Shown here piece by piece: positions 3,705-26,788 of a DNA stretch of 64,000 bases. How positions within the stretch are numbered: position 1 is the first letter of the stretch; every line of letters starts with the position of its first letter. This DNA comes from Candidatus Moanabacter tarae (GTDB taxonomy: Bacteria; Verrucomicrobiota; Verrucomicrobiia; Opitutales; UBA2987): assembly GCA_003226295.1 (NCBI GenBank), contig CP029803.1, positions 924,211-988,210 of the forward strand, read 5' to 3'. Both the position numbers and the translations under genes were made by a program. The notes under the pieces are model-generated. The model worked only from the letters and a program-made list of their open reading frames with translations, did no database searches and was not told where the DNA came from.

Positions 3705-4646
3705 TTAAGTGGGATAACCTAATGATTTATCAACTACATTCTGTAATTCATCTCCTTTAAGATAACGTCGGAGATTTTCTGCAAAAAATCCAACGGTACG
3801 GTCGTGCCGATGAGGAGATCCACCAGCAGCGTGCGGGGTTATGATTACATTTTCTAATTCCCATAGATCACTCGACTCATCTAGAGGTTCTTCTTCAAAT
3901 ACATCTAACCCTGCGGCTCCAATTCCACCTTCTTTTAAAACTGCTACAAGTGCCTGTTCATCAACAATTTTACCACGGGCTGTATTAATTAGAATGGCGT
4001 CTTTTTTCATTATACCAAGCGTCCTTTTGTTAATTAACTTGATTGTTTTTTCCGTGCAGGGACAGGCAATGAAAACTACATCTGCTATTTCAAGAGCCTC
4101 ATCTAGACGTTCCATGGGCCAGATTGCATCAACTGTATCAACTTTAGCGATTGGATGAACATCAAGCGCTATAGTTTGTGTGTTATTGGGACGTATTAGT
4201 TCAGCGTAACGCCGCCCAATTCCCCCAAATCCAATAATTGCTACGTTCATACCATAAAAATCCCGTAGATCAGGTCTTTGCCATTTATGTTCCCGTTGTG
4301 CGCGAACCGAAAAATAAACACCGCGAATTATGGCTAAGGTTAGGGCAAAAGCTTGCTCGGCAACTTGAATAGCATGGACCCCGCTTGCATTGGTAAGAAT
4401 TAAGTTATCTCCCATAACTTCAGGAATTAGAGAAATATCCATCCCAGCGCTTGTTGACTGTACCCATTTAAGTAAAGGGCCACTAGAAATAATCTCTCCG
4501 GAGTAGCTCCCAAAGAGAATCTCAGCATCGCACATTTCATTCAACAATTCATCCGAACTTGGCATAACCACAGTAGCGTTAGGTGCCACTGCGGCAATCT
4601 GTTGGCGATAAATTTCCCCTATAGGGGGATTCATTACGATTTTCAT
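3705..4646 (-). CDS. D-isomer-specific 2-hydroxyacid dehydrogenase
   Basis: This 313-residue protein matches the NAD(P)-dependent D-2-hydroxyacid dehydrogenase family, which interconverts 2-ketoacids and D-2-hydroxyacids. The Rossmann motif GFGGIG is at residues 139-144, and the catalytic triad is in place: R224 in NTARGK, E253 in EEEPLD, and H272 in TPHAAGG. An aspartate in ALDVHP at the end of the second Rossmann strand favours NAD over NADP. The length is normal. It is the last gene of a minus-strand set (PhyH, racemase-like, DUF3830, glycosidase-like), separated from the previous gene by about 275 bp, so it may have its own promoter. The exact substrate (glyoxylate, hydroxypyruvate or another) cannot be decided. 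Confidence 0.9.
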   Translation of the reverse strand: MKIVMNPPIGEIYRQQIAAVAPNATVVMPSSDELLNEMCDAEILFGSYSGEIISSGPLLKWVQSTSAGMDISLIPEVMGDNLILTNASGVHAIQVAEQAFALTLAIIRGVYFSVRAQREHKWQRPDLRDFYGMNVAIIGFGGIGRRYAELIRPNNTQTIALDVHPIAKVDTVDAIWPMERLDEALEIADVVFIACPCTEKTIKLINKRTLGIMKKDAILINTARGKIVDEQALVAVLKEGGIGAAGLDVFEEEPLDESSDLWELENVIITPHAAGGSPHRHDRTVGFFAENLRRYLKGDELQNVVDKSLGYPT

Positions 4647-7273: not shown

Positions 7274-8035
7274 TCATAATTCTCCCATTCTCCATGATAA
7301 AGATGTATCACAGGAGAAGAGACGCCCGAGTCTCATTTGGGGTTTAAAGGTTCCAGCGAGCCTTATTGCTTCCCAAAATGTTACCTGATTTGCTGTAAGA
7401 ACAATCTTCCCCAAAGATGCCTCAAGTTTGGGTAGAAGAGTTGCAGTACGAAGTGCTGTATCAGGAACTAAAACAGCTTCTGCATTCGGATGATCATTTG
7501 CCAAAACGAAATCCATAATCTTTTCTTCATCAAATTCTCCTACCTCTCGTCCCGACCAAATTTCTAAGGAATTAAGTGAAAGAACCTCTACCTCGTCATG
7601 CTCGAGAAAAGAACGAAATGCATTGGCTAGGTCCCGAGGGTATGTTGCAGCAATAGCGACACGTTTTAATCCTAGAGCTCGAATAGCACTCAAGAATGAT
7701 AAAGATGTGCTGGAAGTTGGAACACCTAGAATTTTTTCGATTTTTGATACTTGAAGACGAGCTCCTTCAACACCGAATGAAAAACTTCCGCTTGTGCAGG
7801 CCCACATGCAAGTTTCAACTTTATGACTTTTTAATTCATGTGCACCATTGGCTAGTATCCGCTCGCTTCCTGTGATAAGGCATTCATCCACTCTGTGAAC
7901 ATCCGGGCCTTCCGTATGAACAATTCTAAGATCAACAGGAGGTTCTATCATTGCTGCCAGCTGAGGATAATCATCTTCCGCGGCATTGCCGGGATAAAGG
8001 ATTCCAATTCTCGGGAACGGCGAGGTGCAACTCAT
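7274..8035 (-). CDS. Asp/Glu/hydantoin racemase superfamily protein (maleate isomerase/EutA-like)
   Basis: This 253-residue protein has the two-lobed fold pattern of the aspartate/glutamate racemase superfamily, closest to maleate cis-trans isomerase, arylmalonate decarboxylase and EutA. The first catalytic cysteine is present in the ACTSGSFSFG segment (C80). At the position of the second cysteine the sequence reads VPDTALRT (about 190-197), with no cysteine. A two-base racemase mechanism is therefore unlikely, and a lyase, isomerase or binding role is possible. The DUF3830 gene lies downstream on the same strand and PhyH upstream. It is likely cytoplasmic. Confidence 0.8.
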   Translation of the reverse strand: MSCTSPFPRIGILYPGNAAEDDYPQLAAMIEPPVDLRIVHTEGPDVHRVDECLITGSERILANGAHELKSHKVETCMWACTSGSFSFGVEGARLQVSKIEKILGVPTSSTSLSFLSAIRALGLKRVAIAATYPRDLANAFRSFLEHDEVEVLSLNSLEIWSGREVGEFDEEKIMDFVLANDHPNAEAVLVPDTALRTATLLPKLEASLGKIVLTANQVTFWEAIRLAGTFKPQMRLGRLFSCDTSLSWRMGEL

Positions 8036-8128
8036 GTCTGTATATTGGTTAGATCTGTCTTGATTTTAAAGAGGCTCGAAACATAGAAATTTTTGAGTCA
8101 GTTAGATTTAATCAAACCAAAAAGACCT

Positions 8129-8884
8129 CTAGGTTTTTGTTCCTGGAAGAGAATCAAAACCAATAAACCTTTTTAAAATGGGGGACGCCCTGTTTATCAA
8201 TTCAGGACTTGCAAGTTGAAGGTGATCTTGCTGGGGCTTCATGAAGGCACGGGTAAAAAACCCTAGGAGGATCAAGCGATCCTTATCGGTGCAGTTAGCT
8301 CCACTAGCATGCCAGGTACCTCCATGGAGAATAATGATATCACCAATGCGTGCCTTAAGTTGAACTGCATCCAGATAATCTCCTTTGGGATCTGGCCGAC
8401 TTCCCCGACGATGGCTCTGTGGGACAACCCATGTCGCCCCATTTTCGGCCTTAAAATCATCTAAAACAAAAATTGTGTTGGCACAGAAAGCGGTGGTTGG
8501 AATTGGATCGGGAAATTTTGCCAAAGGCGAATCTATGTGCCAATCACCAGCTGTAGAACCAGGTCCGATTAGATTTGCAGTGAAACTGCTCAACACGAAA
8601 TCATCTCCTAAAAGATACCCGTGGTATTTTAAAATCGTAGGTATTTGAATAATCTCCTCAAAAATCAATCCTTTGTTTAACAAATTCCAAACTCGTTGTG
8701 ATTTTCCGTTAAGGTAAAGGTCTGCTCCAGCTGCACGTTCCCTGGCAATTAATTCCACAGTTTTGCTTCTAAGCTCTGAAACTTGGTTTTGATTCAAAGC
8801 ATCTTTCAAAACGACGTAGCCTTTATCTTCGAGTTCAATAAAAAATCTATCCATTCCTGTTTTCTTTTCGACTTTTTCAATCAT
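8129..8884 (-). CDS. Phytanoyl-CoA dioxygenase (PhyH) family protein
   Basis: A 251-residue Fe(II)/2-oxoglutarate-dependent oxygenase of the PhyH family. The facial triad is visible: H116-x-D118 in DWHIDSP and the distal H192 in GGTWHASG. R203 in TDKDRLIL is suited to binding the 2-oxoglutarate carboxylate. Family members hydroxylate fatty acyl chains, ectoine, phosphonates and other small molecules, so the substrate remains open. It is the first gene of the minus-strand set running to the DUF3830 gene, divergent from the dimethylformamidase-like gene with about 120 bp between. Confidence 0.9.
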   Translation of the reverse strand: MIEKVEKKTGMDRFFIELEDKGYVVLKDALNQNQVSELRSKTVELIARERAAGADLYLNGKSQRVWNLLNKGLIFEEIIQIPTILKYHGYLLGDDFVLSSFTANLIGPGSTAGDWHIDSPLAKFPDPIPTTAFCANTIFVLDDFKAENGATWVVPQSHRRGSRPDPKGDYLDAVQLKARIGDIIILHGGTWHASGANCTDKDRLILLGFFTRAFMKPQQDHLQLASPELINRASPILKRFIGFDSLPGTKT

Positions 8885-9007
8885 TGATTAACCTTTTCAT
8901 AGGTTGAATCCCATAGCAATGGATTTAAAATCCGATAAGAACAAAAATTTTGCTCTTTTTTAAATGGGTATTTGCATTAGATCGTGTGCTAGACCACAGT
9001 TTTGGAA

Positions 9008-11212
9008 ATGAAAATTGTAGGTTACAGTGATCGATTAAGTGTTCGGCCTGGTCAGACGATTAAGTTCATGGTGAGTTGCGAAGCGTCTTCTTATCGGGCT
9101 GAGATAGTTCGATTACGACATACTGATGACAACCCGAATGGTCCTGGCTTTAAGACCGAGAAACAATTGACCTCCATAGAGGGAAAGTACAAAGGACATT
9201 ATCAGCCGATTCATACAGGATCATATGCATCTATTTCCCATGATCCATTGCTTAACTGTACAAATGGATTCACAATCCAGTCATGGATTTTTCCCACTAC
9301 ACCCAAGAGGGGAGTGCAAGGGATTTTAACGAAATTCTCCCGAGTAGATGAATCTGGATACGGTCTTTATATCGACGAGAATGGTTCCCTTTCATTATGG
9401 TTGGGATCTAGAGAAAATCTTATAAAAGTCGGAACAGGCTCAGCCCTTCAAGAGCGGGTTTGGTATTTTGTGGCGGCATCCTACGATCCAGCCAACAACG
9501 AGGTACAGCTTTTTCAGAAACAACAAACTCAATGGCCAGACCGAAAGGCTGAGGCCAGTATCCGAAAGAGTGTACATTCGGGAGCAGTTAATGCGAGTCA
9601 AGGGGACTTACTAATAGGAGCTAGTCGAACTCCCGTTTCTATGGATTCGGCGGCCCAAAATCATTTTAATGGGAAAATCGATAATCCACGAATCTACAGT
9701 TGTGTTATTGAAGATATAGGCAAGGAATTGACGAGACCTGTTTCGGTCGTTGGTAATTGGGATTTCTCATTGGATATAAGTTCAAATCGAATTAGCGATA
9801 CGGGACCAAATGGATTCCATGGAATCCTAATCAATTTACCGACACGGGCAGTAACAGGCCATAACTGGAATGGGAATGTATCTGATTTTAATGTGGAACC
9901 GAGCCACTACGCTGCAATTCATTTCCACGATGACGATCTTGAGGATGCTCGTTGGGATCTAGGGTTTGAATGGAAAGTTCCAGAGAACTTTCTTAGTGGT
10001 GTTTACTCCGTACATTTGGAGACGGAAGAAGAAGAAGATTATGTTACATTCTTTGTTGTGCCGGTTAAACCGCATTCTCGAATCGCATTCTTAGTTCCAA
10101 CTCTAACCTACCAAGTCTACGCGAATCACCGTTATATCGATTTGATGCGTGCAATGCTTGAGAGGGAGGGAATTGAATCTAATGTTCCCGAGGATAAGTA
10201 CATGAAGAAGCACTCCCTTTTGAGCGGTTACGATCTCCATTCTGATGGGAGTGGAGTTTGTTACTCATCTCAGTTGAGACCGTTTCTTAATTTTCGTCCA
10301 CGATATCGGATGCCATCTCAATCGCTGGCAGCATTCTCTCCTCGACATCTAAATAGCGATATGCATCTCCTGCACTGGCTTGATAATAAGAGTTTCGACT
10401 ACGATATTATTACCGACCACGAATTGCATAGCGAAGGATCTAAATTACTTTCCTCGTATCGAGTCATATTAACGGGTTCTCACCCGGAATACTGGACATC
10501 TCAGATGCTTGAGGCCATGGAACTGTATCAGACCGGCGGGGGGCGACTTATGTATTTAGGTGGGAACGGATTCTATTGGGTCACTTCCTTTGATCCTGAG
10601 AGGCCCCATATTGTTGAGGTTCGGCGTTGGCGAGGGACTAGGGCTTGGGAAGCTGCCCCTGGGGAGTGTTTCCATAGTACAACCGGAGAAATTGGAGGAA
10701 TATGGAGATTCCGGAATAGAGAACCACAGAAGATGGTCGGAGTTGGATTCACCGCTCAGGGTAGCGGGGAAAATCGACCATATATAAGAAAACCTGATAG
10801 CCTCAAAGATGAAGTTGCTTTTATTTTTGATGGAGTTGGGGAAGACGAACTAATTGGTGATTTCCCTGCGCTTGTTTTAGAGCACGGAGCAGGTGGATTC
10901 GAGATTGACCGATTGGACCATATTCAAGGTACTCCAAAGCATGCCCTGCTGCTTGCGAGCGCCGGAGGATTTTCGGACACGTACCAGATTACTATCGAGG
11001 ATCAACTTTGCTGTAATCCAAATACTGGCGGTTCTAGAAACGCAATGGTGCGTTCGGACATGATATATATGGAGGGGCAAAAAGGGGGTGCAACTTTTTC
11101 AGTTGGATCGATTAGTTGGTGCAGTTGCTTATCCTACAATGGCAGTAATAACAATGTTTCACAGATTACTGAAAATGTTTTACGGCGGTTTTCTGAGGAT
11201 TCTTACTCGTAA
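9008..11212 (+). CDS. N,N-dimethylformamidase large-subunit homologue
   Basis: The 734-residue protein resembles the large subunit of N,N-dimethylformamidase. It has an N-terminal beta region with SVRPGQTIKF, a LamG/concanavalin-like jelly roll (about 60-290, with FTIQSWIFPT and NHFNGKIDNPRIY), and a large C-terminal catalytic region rich in conserved tyrosine and tryptophan (GSHPEYWT, GGNGFYWV). Known homologues bind a single iron through tyrosine and glutamate and hydrolyse small amides. I chose ATG 9008; an in-frame TTG at 9002 is an alternative, and neither has a clear RBS. No small-subunit gene (about 130 residues in known enzymes) is seen nearby. The amide substrate is unknown. Confidence 0.85.
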   Translation: MKIVGYSDRLSVRPGQTIKFMVSCEASSYRAEIVRLRHTDDNPNGPGFKTEKQLTSIEGKYKGHYQPIHTGSYASISHDPLLNCTNGFTIQSWIFPTTPKRGVQGILTKFSRVDESGYGLYIDENGSLSLWLGSRENLIKVGTGSALQERVWYFVAASYDPANNEVQLFQKQQTQWPDRKAEASIRKSVHSGAVNASQGDLLIGASRTPVSMDSAAQNHFNGKIDNPRIYSCVIEDIGKELTRPVSVVGNWDFSLDISSNRISDTGPNGFHGILINLPTRAVTGHNWNGNVSDFNVEPSHYAAIHFHDDDLEDARWDLGFEWKVPENFLSGVYSVHLETEEEEDYVTFFVVPVKPHSRIAFLVPTLTYQVYANHRYIDLMRAMLEREGIESNVPEDKYMKKHSLLSGYDLHSDGSGVCYSSQLRPFLNFRPRYRMPSQSLAAFSPRHLNSDMHLLHWLDNKSFDYDIITDHELHSEGSKLLSSYRVILTGSHPEYWTSQMLEAMELYQTGGGRLMYLGGNGFYWVTSFDPERPHIVEVRRWRGTRAWEAAPGECFHSTTGEIGGIWRFRNREPQKMVGVGFTAQGSGENRPYIRKPDSLKDEVAFIFDGVGEDELIGDFPALVLEHGAGGFEIDRLDHIQGTPKHALLLASAGGFSDTYQITIEDQLCCNPNTGGSRNAMVRSDMIYMEGQKGGATFSVGSISWCSCLSYNGSNNNVSQITENVLRRFSEDSYS

Positions 11213-11567
11213 TCAAAAAGAGAATTAATAATTGGACATTTAATAAGATTATTTAGCTGATATCTGCATCTTGAAAATCGGCTTTTAGAATGAATATTAG
11301 AACTTTCTACGACCTCGTTATTAAGTGTGAACGAAAATAGATCTACTTCTTTTTTAACGACCTCTGTATTCATTGTGACTTAGAGGTAGATTTTAACTTC
11401 ATTGTCTTATGCGTTTTATACCTAAAACAGGAAAGGACACAAAGTGTAAAAGTCTAGTTGGGATTCCAAAGATTGAAATTTATATGAGACGAAGTTCCTT
11501 GATGTTATGTTGAGGTGAACTATGAAGGAGCCCAGATTTAACAAATAGCAATAAAATCAATGCCAGA
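11213..11567. other. 355-bp intergenic region without a recognised gene
   Basis: AT-rich sequence between the dimethylformamidase-like gene and the cyclase gene. Two imperfect copies of an ACGACCTC-initiated stretch occur near 11309 and 11359. I see no convincing ORF, RNA gene or terminator. A minus-strand frame that crosses into the cyclase gene looks like its shadow. Confidence 0.4.
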
Positions 11568-12581
11568 ATGATAATGATCGCGAATAAACGAAAAGTAGAA
11601 AATCCAGGACCCACAGCATCGGCAATATGGAATGCAATAGTTTTTCTATTAATAGTTTCTGTTAGCCCACTTGGAGGTAATGAGGAAACTCCTGTGGGTC
11701 CGGCATGGTGGCCTTCGGAATGGGGCAAAGATGATCAAAGAGGTGCTTTAAATCGTATTACTTCCTCCAAGGTTCTGGAAGCGATAAGTCTGATTAAGGA
11801 AGGAAAGATCTACCAATTGGGGAGAGTGTATGAATCAGGTATGCCATTATTCGGAGATCGACATTACAGTTTAACTATACCTGGCGTTCCCAGTGGAATG
11901 GTTGAAGCCGAAAATCAAATTATCTGGAATGACGAAATTTTCAGCGGTGAAATTGGTCAGGTAGGTACACAATTTGACGGACTCGGTCATATTGGAGTTC
12001 GGGTCAATGGTGAAGATAGGTTTTACAATGGATTCAGGCTTGAAGATTTCGGTGATTCCTACGGTTTGAAAAAACTGGGGGTTGAAAACGTTGGAGTATT
12101 TTTAACCCGAGGTGTATTACTTGATGTAGCAGCCTATAAGGGGGTAGACCGCCTTGAAGTTGGTTATGTTATAACGGTGAATGATATTAAAGGTACCTTA
12201 AAGATGCAGGATATTTTAATTCGCGAAGGCGATGTTGTTCTTTTCCGAACCGGTCACGGAAAACTCTGGATGAAGGATAACGAAACCTATAACAGCGGAC
12301 ACCCTGGGCCAGGTTTGCAAGCAGCTAAATGGCTAATCAAAAAAAAGATTGTCATGGTAGGTGGAGACAGCTGGGCAGTGGAGGCAGTTCCTGGAGAGGA
12401 TGAAAATCGTCCATTTGAAGTTCACCAGTGGTTGATAGCTAAGAATGGAATCCACATTATAGAGAATTTAAATCTGGATGAACTTTCTCAAAACTTAGTT
12501 TATGAGTTTGCTTTCTTCTTTGCACCAGTACCCTTAAAAGGTGCTACGGGTTCACCAGGTAATCCAATTGCAGTAAGGTAA
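11568..12581 (+). CDS. Putative cyclase family (PF04199) hydrolase, possibly exported
   Basis: This 337-residue protein fits the putative-cyclase/kynurenine-formamidase-like superfamily of metal-dependent amide and lactone hydrolases. The motif GTQFDGLGHIG at about 133-143 corresponds to the HxGTHxDxPxH metal site; the glutamine form is what I know from the longer subclade. Further hallmarks are FRTGHG near 218-223 and the GGDSWAVE motif near 263-270. The N-terminus has a basic stretch then a hydrophobic segment (AIVFLLIVSVS), consistent with a signal peptide or anchor. It may act on amides or lactones with the dimethylformamidase-like protein upstream, which is an inference from adjacency only. 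Confidence 0.85.
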   Translation: MIMIANKRKVENPGPTASAIWNAIVFLLIVSVSPLGGNEETPVGPAWWPSEWGKDDQRGALNRITSSKVLEAISLIKEGKIYQLGRVYESGMPLFGDRHYSLTIPGVPSGMVEAENQIIWNDEIFSGEIGQVGTQFDGLGHIGVRVNGEDRFYNGFRLEDFGDSYGLKKLGVENVGVFLTRGVLLDVAAYKGVDRLEVGYVITVNDIKGTLKMQDILIREGDVVLFRTGHGKLWMKDNETYNSGHPGPGLQAAKWLIKKKIVMVGGDSWAVEAVPGEDENRPFEVHQWLIAKNGIHIIENLNLDELSQNLVYEFAFFFAPVPLKGATGSPGNPIAVR

Positions 12582-12816
12582 GTTATTTCTGTCTTTTGTT
12601 CTCTGCCCCTAGAGTCTATCTATAAAACAGTGTTTGCTGTTACAGAAGGCTTGGGAAATCCTACCCTGTAATTCAACAGATTAATTAACTAAGTTCTAGA
12701 CCTTAAGTTTTGAATCCCCATCCAGCCTAAGTTCATTTATTTAGAAGGGTATTCAGGAACGTTCTCGGACTGGAAGGTCCCCGTGCATCGGAATATCTCC
12801 AAGAAGTTCAGTGTAC

Positions 12817-13686
12817 CTATATCTCCCGAATTGCCGTCTTAGGATCGAAAGCATCACGGAGTGCATCACCGAGAAAATTAAGCGATAATAAGGTAAAAGA
12901 AAAAGTGATGCTGGGAAAGATAAGGAGCCACGGATAAGCTTCCATAGCATCGGCCCCTTCCTTAATCAAGGATCCCCAGGAGGCCATGGGAGCCTGGACC
13001 CCTAGTCCGAGAAAGCTTACAAAAGCTTCAAGAAGCATTACGTTGGGAACAGTAAGAGTTGTATACACCACGATAGGGCCAAGCATATTCGGAAGTAGAT
13101 GTTTGCGAATTATACGATATGGGGGTTGTCCTAATATCTGGGATGCTAACACATATTCCTGTACTTTGAGGGCTAGTGCTTGGCCCCGAACAATGCGTGC
13201 CATTGTAAGCCACTCAGCTGCTCCAATTGCGATGAAAATTAAAAATATGCTTCGGCCAAAAAGGACAGTTAAAAGAATTACAAAAACAATGAAAGGCATA
13301 GAATAAATAATCTCAACAATCCGCATCATAATTCTATCAGTCCAACCACCAGCATAGCCCGATATTAGACCATAGGACACCCCAATAGTAAGAGACACGA
13401 GAGTCGCAAGGATGCCGACTAGGAGCGATATTCTTCCACCATAAAGAATGCGGCTTAGGAGATCGCGACCTAAAACATCAGTGCCTAATAAGTGCTCAGA
13501 AAGTGATGGGCCGATTGCACCGATGGAAAGATTAGTAGCATCAAATGGAAAAGGTGCGATTAATGGGGCTAATGCGCATAAGGAACTGATCGAAATCAGA
13601 TATACTACTCCGATTAAAGCCATACGGTTTTTGCTTAGGCGCCGCAAGGAGTCTGACCATAGTGAGTGATGTTGGGAAGAATTCAC
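12817..13686 (-). CDS. Peptide ABC transporter permease, OppC/DppC type (second pair)
   Basis: The 289-residue inner-membrane permease has an N-terminal transmembrane helix, the OppC-type extracytoplasmic segment HLLGTDVLGRD, and the BPD_transp_1 core with the EAA-like loop (YVLASQILGQPPYRII), ending near FGDALRDAFDP-type sequence. It is the last gene of a six-gene minus-strand operon. The predicted start is GTG at 13686, 11 bp after the preceding permease stop; the RBS is not clear. Together with the next gene upstream it forms a complete OppB/OppC-type heterodimer. The substrate is probably peptides or opine-like compounds. Confidence 0.92.
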   Translation of the reverse strand: MNSSQHHSLWSDSLRRLSKNRMALIGVVYLISISSLCALAPLIAPFPFDATNLSIGAIGPSLSEHLLGTDVLGRDLLSRILYGGRISLLVGILATLVSLTIGVSYGLISGYAGGWTDRIMMRIVEIIYSMPFIVFVILLTVLFGRSIFLIFIAIGAAEWLTMARIVRGQALALKVQEYVLASQILGQPPYRIIRKHLLPNMLGPIVVYTTLTVPNVMLLEAFVSFLGLGVQAPMASWGSLIKEGADAMEAYPWLLIFPSITFSFTLLSLNFLGDALRDAFDPKTAIREI

Positions 13687-26026: not shown

Positions 26027-26788
26027 ATGGATCAACTAGAATTTCGGAAAAGGATTAAGAGTGGAGAATCATTGCTAGGTTGTGCGGTTGGTTTAAGCCA
26101 TCCTATGGCTGTGGAAATAGCCGGTTATGCGGGTTTCGACTTCGTGTTTCTCGACACCGAGCATAGCGCGCTTGGCATAACAGAGATTGAGGCTATGATA
26201 CTTGCTGCTCGGGTTGGGCAAATCGCTGCTATTTATAGAGTAAGACAACTTGATTCCGCAGAAATTGGTCGCGCTCTTGACATTGGGGCTAACGGTATTC
26301 TCGTTCCTCACATCAGGTCTGCCGAGGAAGGGCGGTTAGTTGTTGAAGCATCACGGTATGCTCCAATTGGTCGCCGTGGAATGGGACCAGGAAGACAGAT
26401 CAAATTTGGTTTAACAGATGCGAAAAATTATGTGTCTAATGCTAATGAAGACACTGTTATTGCTTGCATGATTGAAGACCGAGAAGCAGTTGAAGATATA
26501 GAGGCAATCGCCGCTGTAGATGGCATTGATGTCTTTAATATTGGAACTTGTGATCTTTCCAATTCGCTCGGTGTCCCATTTCAAACCAGGCACCCTAAAG
26601 TAATGGAAGCAATAGAGAGGATCATCGATGCTGCTCAGGCAAACAATATTGCTGTCGGAGTTCCGCCAGAGAGTGCAGAGGAAGTTCCAGAACTAAAGAA
26701 AATGGGGTGTAGTTTCTTTGAATGTTGCTCAGTCCAAGAGGTTCTGGCACACGGATTGAGGGAATTTAAATATAGGGCTGATTCTTGA
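26027..26788 (+). CDS. HpcH/HpaI family class II aldolase
   Basis: This 253-residue TIM-barrel protein belongs to the HpcH/HpaI aldolase family, which cleaves 2-keto-3-deoxy sugar acids or 4-hydroxy-2-ketoacids to pyruvate and an aldehyde using a divalent metal. The motif FLDTEHSALG (about 41-50) holds the catalytic histidine. The metal ligands are expected at the glutamate in CMIEDREA and the aspartate in GTCDLSNSLG, and RYAPIGRRGMGPGR matches the family's conserved loop. A GA-rich RBS (AAAAGGAAAC) precedes the ATG. With the mutarotase downstream, a 2-keto-3-deoxy-L-rhamnonate-type substrate is plausible. Confidence 0.9.
   Translation: MDQLEFRKRIKSGESLLGCAVGLSHPMAVEIAGYAGFDFVFLDTEHSALGITEIEAMILAARVGQIAAIYRVRQLDSAEIGRALDIGANGILVPHIRSAEEGRLVVEASRYAPIGRRGMGPGRQIKFGLTDAKNYVSNANEDTVIACMIEDREAVEDIEAIAAVDGIDVFNIGTCDLSNSLGVPFQTRHPKVMEAIERIIDAAQANNIAVGVPPESAEEVPELKKMGCSFFECCSVQEVLAHGLREFKYRADS

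Follow-up and report, generated by a model that had tools for sequence, protein, structure and literature searches.

The 64,000-nucleotide stretch of DNA analysed here (the window) carries on its forward strand, at 9008..11212, a gene encoding a 734-residue protein of the N,N-dimethylformamidase (DMFase) large-subunit type, which putatively functions as a single subunit. Translation from the ATG at 9008 agrees with the MKIVGY sequence that opens its close relatives. In Pfam, the PF20254 profile (DMFA2_C) matched residues 281-713 with an E value of 3.9e-89 and 300 bits against a curated cut-off of 27, and Laminin_G_3 matched residues 73-236 (E 1.3e-13). The protein aligned by phmmer over residues 3-734 with 6lvb_A from Paracoccus DMFase (E 1.3e-150) and with 8huy_A, an N-acetyl-(R)-beta-phenylalanine acylase (E 7.7e-137). 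An AlphaFold2 model built from 55 aligned sequences (mean pLDDT 92.1, pTM 0.92) superimposed on 6lvb_A with a Z score of 54.4 and an rmsd of 1.9 over 720 residues at 38% identity, covering all three domains, and on 8i5a_B with a Z score of 51.5. Unrelated structures followed at Z 18.6 and matched the pentraxin-like part alone. Pfam, phmmer and structure comparison thus confirm the large-subunit homologue starting at the ATG at 9008 that was proposed in the preliminary description.

Domain II, which is pentraxin/LamG-like, comprises residues 69-311 (9212..9940, forward strand) as mapped from residues 74-337 of 6lvb, the domain II of PMC7686228; pentraxin and LamG structures align to model residues 69-289. 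The catalytic alpha/beta domain III extends from residue 356 (10073..11209, forward strand), mapped from residue 384 of 6lvb. According to PMC7686228, the iron ligands of parDMFase are Y399, Y440 and E521, with H519 essential and N547 in the active site. All five residues are shared with the window protein, the equivalents in the alignment being Tyr371 (10118..10120), Tyr408 (10229..10231), Glu494 (10487..10489), His492 (10481..10483) and Asn520 (10565..10567), respectively, all on the forward strand. The ligands and the histidine are retained in 39 of 39 aligned rows of the clade to which the protein belongs (see below) and in all 54 of the rows that have a small subunit (paired rows). The 2-Tyr-1-Glu iron site is therefore predicted from its residues to be intact, and the loss of iron ligands, named beforehand as an outcome that would count against the proposal, did not occur, since Tyr371, Tyr408 and Glu494 are all present.

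The protein differs from Paracoccus DMFase (6lvb; DmfA1/DmfA2) in other respects. Relative to 6lvb, it lacks two loops in domain II (182-190 and 281-284) as well as residues 434-435, and contains a two-residue insertion, Ala621-Leu622 (10868..10873, forward strand), that is present in 62% of its clade and in none of the 54 paired rows. Phe693, which narrows the DMFase pocket according to PMC7686228, is not conserved; in a poorly aligned loop, the window protein has Cys668 as its equivalent and the residue varies across the clade, with Phe in just 25 of 54 paired rows. The genome also encodes a second PF20254 protein (C1:2519803-2520822; L002) of 527 residues without LamG, in which the Tyr, His and Glu site residues are apparently retained.

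Genes flanking the large-subunit gene

The divergent neighbour, separated by a gap of 118 bases, is a PhyH-type oxygenase gene on the reverse strand (8129..8884; Pfam PhyH, E 6.5e-23). A divergent PhyH gene lies at the same 118-base gap in L025, where the enzyme is 60% identical, an arrangement that makes a functional link between the two genes possible. Next in L025 come genes for a 2-hydroxyacid dehydrogenase and an HpcH aldolase, relatives of which are found in the window at 3708-4646 and 26027-26785. PhyH-like genes were found near 6 of 37 loci of the clade versus 0 of 53 paired loci, a comparison confounded by the host phyla. The neighbours in the window include the PhyH oxygenase, an Amdase/EutA-like protein, a DUF3830 protein, a 2-hydroxyacid dehydrogenase and a peptide-type ABC transporter. 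A scan of the neighbours recognised no gene of a formamide or dimethylamine pathway. The Amdase/EutA-like gene (7274-8035, reverse strand) lies beside the DUF3830 and PhyH genes; its EutA match is below the curated cut-off.

Located 355 bases downstream on the forward strand is a cyclase-family gene (11568..12581; PF04199 Cyclase, E 1.4e-21), the nearest solved structure to its product being 5ibz (E 3.1e-31). The product has a hydrophobic, signal-like N-terminal stretch, judged by eye, of a kind not found in the 734-residue enzyme. These properties fit the earlier description of the next gene on the strand as a cyclase-family gene with a possible signal peptide; the suggested association with the enzyme is not supported, a cyclase relative being found near only 1 (L030) of the 84 homologous loci giving matches. 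The cyclase-family protein was also considered as a partner and rejected, since the linkage is not conserved and its start is signal-like, unlike that of the enzyme. The gene is probably unrelated to the enzyme, and positions 9008-12581 hold two genes that do not necessarily belong together.

Search for a small subunit

In PMC7686228, the large subunit of parDMFase is described as inactive alone, given there as data not shown. The statement in the preliminary description that known DMFases need a small subunit therefore holds for parDMFase; it does not extend to the related acylase 8huy, which has no small-subunit chain. The 8huy crystal contains chains A and B of one sequence, which describes the crystal content only, and the cell could still hold a small subunit.

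Inspection of all open reading frames of at least 30 residues at 8000-13000 revealed no small-subunit candidate, as had been reported for the surroundings of the gene. The family sought is represented in plasmid records by a short gene directly upstream of known and probable DMFase-type large genes. These short genes were assigned to the small-subunit family through 6lvb_B (L003, E 6.6e-64; L007, E 1.2e-15); the small subunit of L021 alone reached just E 0.41, and the family profile matched 6lvb_B at E 2.3e-28. The genome searched is a single contig of 2,633,965 bases, 98.2% complete. A 4-sequence model at E values up to 10 gave no match, and neither did an 11-sequence model at E values up to 0.01. 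A 42-sequence model gave one match, at E 0.1 within a 1942-residue frame, which was taken as chance. As a control, the 11-sequence model matched 11 of 11 genomes that carry a small subunit, none of which had contributed a sequence to it, with best E values of 3.7e-25 or better. The suggestion of a partner encoded elsewhere in the genome is thus not supported, since a model that recovered every control gave no match here. A small-subunit gene elsewhere had, like the loss of iron ligands, been named beforehand as counting against the proposal, and neither outcome was observed.

Distribution of the small subunit in the family

Among 84,980 species genomes scanned, 575 relatives were found, of which the best 80 loci were used; these were chosen by likeness to the window, so that proportions among them are biased. 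Small-subunit matches at the 80 loci were bimodal, with either an adjacent gene at E <1e-18 or none at E <1, and the gene was present at 43 loci and absent at 37. At paired loci the known small subunits directly adjoin the large gene. Trees were obtained by quick searches without bootstrap, leaving out L047, L098 and L100 (truncated or broken) and distant loci. The tree of 95 rows comprised 54 paired rows, 40 unpaired rows and 8huy, which was unlabelled. Thirty-nine of the 40 unpaired rows, the window included, formed one clade with SH-aLRT 100, apart from 6lvb, which falls in a paired clade, and the remaining one, L096, joined 8huy; one clade row, L032, has only 142 bases upstream, too short to judge. 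With domain III alone and 23 outgroup rows, the window's clade was recovered with SH-aLRT 99. The small-subunit label required 2 changes on the 94 labelled rows versus 30.5 in shuffles, and again 2 changes on 96 labelled rows in a set enlarged by 11 plasmid loci. L140 and the fusion protein (below) lie on long branches.

The plasmid loci L131-L136 grouped with 8huy and L096. A small gene is absent from all six, and upstream of L131, L134 and L135 the space is too short for one. The acylase-type clade, with 7 of 7 labelled rows lacking the small gene, is thus a second unpaired clade. The acylase (8huy, 8i59 and 8i5a) resembles the window protein in its three-domain fold, its iron-site residues and the absence of a small-subunit chain from the structure entries; it differs in belonging to another clade, in lacking the two-residue insertion and in being only about 37% identical. 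The shorter PF20254 proteins (about 460-620 residues, for example L002) mostly have no domain II and show about 30% similarity to the window protein. In the outgroup drawn from them, Y399, H519 and E521 are conserved in 23 of 23 rows and Y440 in 20, and no small subunit was found near such genes at the 22 loci searched.

Members of the window's clade occur in Gemmatimonadota, Latescibacterota, Acidobacteriota, Pseudomonadota, Binatota, Chloroflexota, Actinomycetota, Bacillota and Nitrososphaerota, nine phyla of which one is archaeal, the names coming from mostly metagenome-derived records. Three-domain copies are rare in the window's own phylum, and the nearest relatives (L023, L024 and L025; 60-65% identity) belong to other phyla and are also without the small gene. 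No small-subunit match was found in 22 of 24 genomes with clade members. Of the two exceptions, G094 has two matches, each adjoining its own separate large gene, and the match in G110, weak at 6e-8, is fused to another large subunit. Most genomes with clade members therefore have no small subunit to borrow. Apart from the enzyme itself, no gene family was shared by more than 6 of the 37 neighbourhoods compared in the clade, the widest being an ABC ATPase (6 of 37), and an alternative partner encoded nearby is thus unlikely.

Several further arrangements were observed. The fusion in G110 (Streptosporangium saharense, L143:3789-6362) is an 858-residue frame in which degenerate small-subunit-like residues 14-106 precede the large subunit at the N-terminus. 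At L051 (4301-4813, Paenibacillus filicis) the small-subunit match and the large gene are on opposite strands, which is the case at no other paired locus. Directly downstream of the large gene, an additional and weaker match to the small subunit (E 1e-3 to 1e-11) is found at L061, L077, L089, L090, L092-L094, L097, L101, L102 and L005, as if these operons had two small subunits. The N-termini of clade members L029, L038, L043, L049 and L087 resemble signal peptides by eye, and on this resemblance some enzymes of the clade may be exported. Clade members of Paenibacillus (L071, L076, L085 and L091) lie beside a conserved four-gene set, which we take to include an apparent FkbH-type HAD protein and an acyl carrier protein and which is possibly a biosynthetic cluster.

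Function and origin of the single-chain form

Overall, the results indicate, with a probability of roughly three in four, that the gene product is a mononuclear-iron amide hydrolase with the DMFase fold that works as a single subunit. At the family level, a 39-row clade that lacks the small gene and retains the full iron site throughout supports the suggestion of a large subunit working alone. The protein would fold and act as a homomer without a small subunit, and, by the mechanism proposed for DMFase, a ferric iron would activate both the amide carbonyl and a water molecule. The substrate is probably not DMF; a larger N-acyl amide would be consistent with the single-chain relative being an N-acetyl-amino-acid acylase, with a pocket Phe that is not conserved, and with the peptide-type ABC transporter and catabolic neighbours, the neighbourhood being read as one for catabolism of a larger amide. 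A change of activity relative to DMFase, also raised at the outset, is plausible.

An unlikely alternative is that a partner persists, encoded elsewhere and too diverged from, or too unlike, the known family to be detected by sequence models. Known small subunits are short and, even within the family, share only about 19-38% identity with the first row of their alignment, and the 42-row model did give its E 0.1 match, in the unrelated 1942-residue frame. The recovery of all 11 controls by the 11-row model argues against such a partner, as do the 22 of 24 clade-member genomes without any match and the finding that no gene recurs beside the clade, whereas known small subunits adjoin the large gene. 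A genuine N,N-dimethylformamidase or formamidase able to do without a small subunit is less probable again. The iron site is complete and 6lvb is the closest solved structure, but the clade differs from that of 6lvb, the solved single-chain relative acts as an acylase on a large substrate, the Phe693 equivalent is Cys668 (in a loop of uncertain alignment), and the scanned neighbours held no recognised formamide or dimethylamine pathway gene. Least of all do we expect an orphaned large subunit whose partner was recently lost from this genome and which is now inactive or decaying, a reading in keeping with the reported inactivity of the parDMFase large subunit alone (PMC7686228) and with the rarity of three-domain copies in the phylum, which makes a recent transfer without the partner conceivable, but opposed by the intact frame and catalytic residues and by L023, L024 and L025 in other phyla, whose shared lack of the small gene marks the state as old and not a local accident.

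The trees root differently on whether the small subunit was lost in this clade or gained elsewhere. In the full-length tree the two-row outgroup joined the clade without small subunit. An unconstrained tree of domain III that included 23 outgroup rows nested the unpaired clade inside the paired rows; when the clade was held together with the outgroup the lnL was 11.3 higher (p-AU 0.775), so that this grouping is not rejected. Trp occupies the second position after the Glu ligand in 20 of 23 outgroup, 24 of 35 clade and 3 of 43 paired rows, a sequence pattern that leans towards the single-chain form being the older. Tentatively, and with somewhat more doubt than belief, the single-chain form may be the ancestral three-domain DMFase, the small subunit having been added later in one branch and lost again in the acylase branch.

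Among the titles and abstracts that searches on DMFase or DMFA2 outside subscription journals brought up, none describes a single-subunit clade. Some homologues in the clade carry the label "DMFase beta subunit" (for example L006), which should not be taken to indicate DMF degradation. The ferric 2-Tyr-1-Glu amidase site of DMFase is unusual, and the large subunit that has been characterised shows no activity unless the small one is present. A clade that naturally combines this site with the absence of the partner allows a direct test of the role of the small subunit, be it in stability, substrate entry or specificity, and offers simpler, single-gene amidases. If the single-chain form is ancestral, the dependence of the DMFase large subunit on its partner would be derived, and the window protein would represent a class of single-chain iron amidases that is widespread and as yet uncharacterised.
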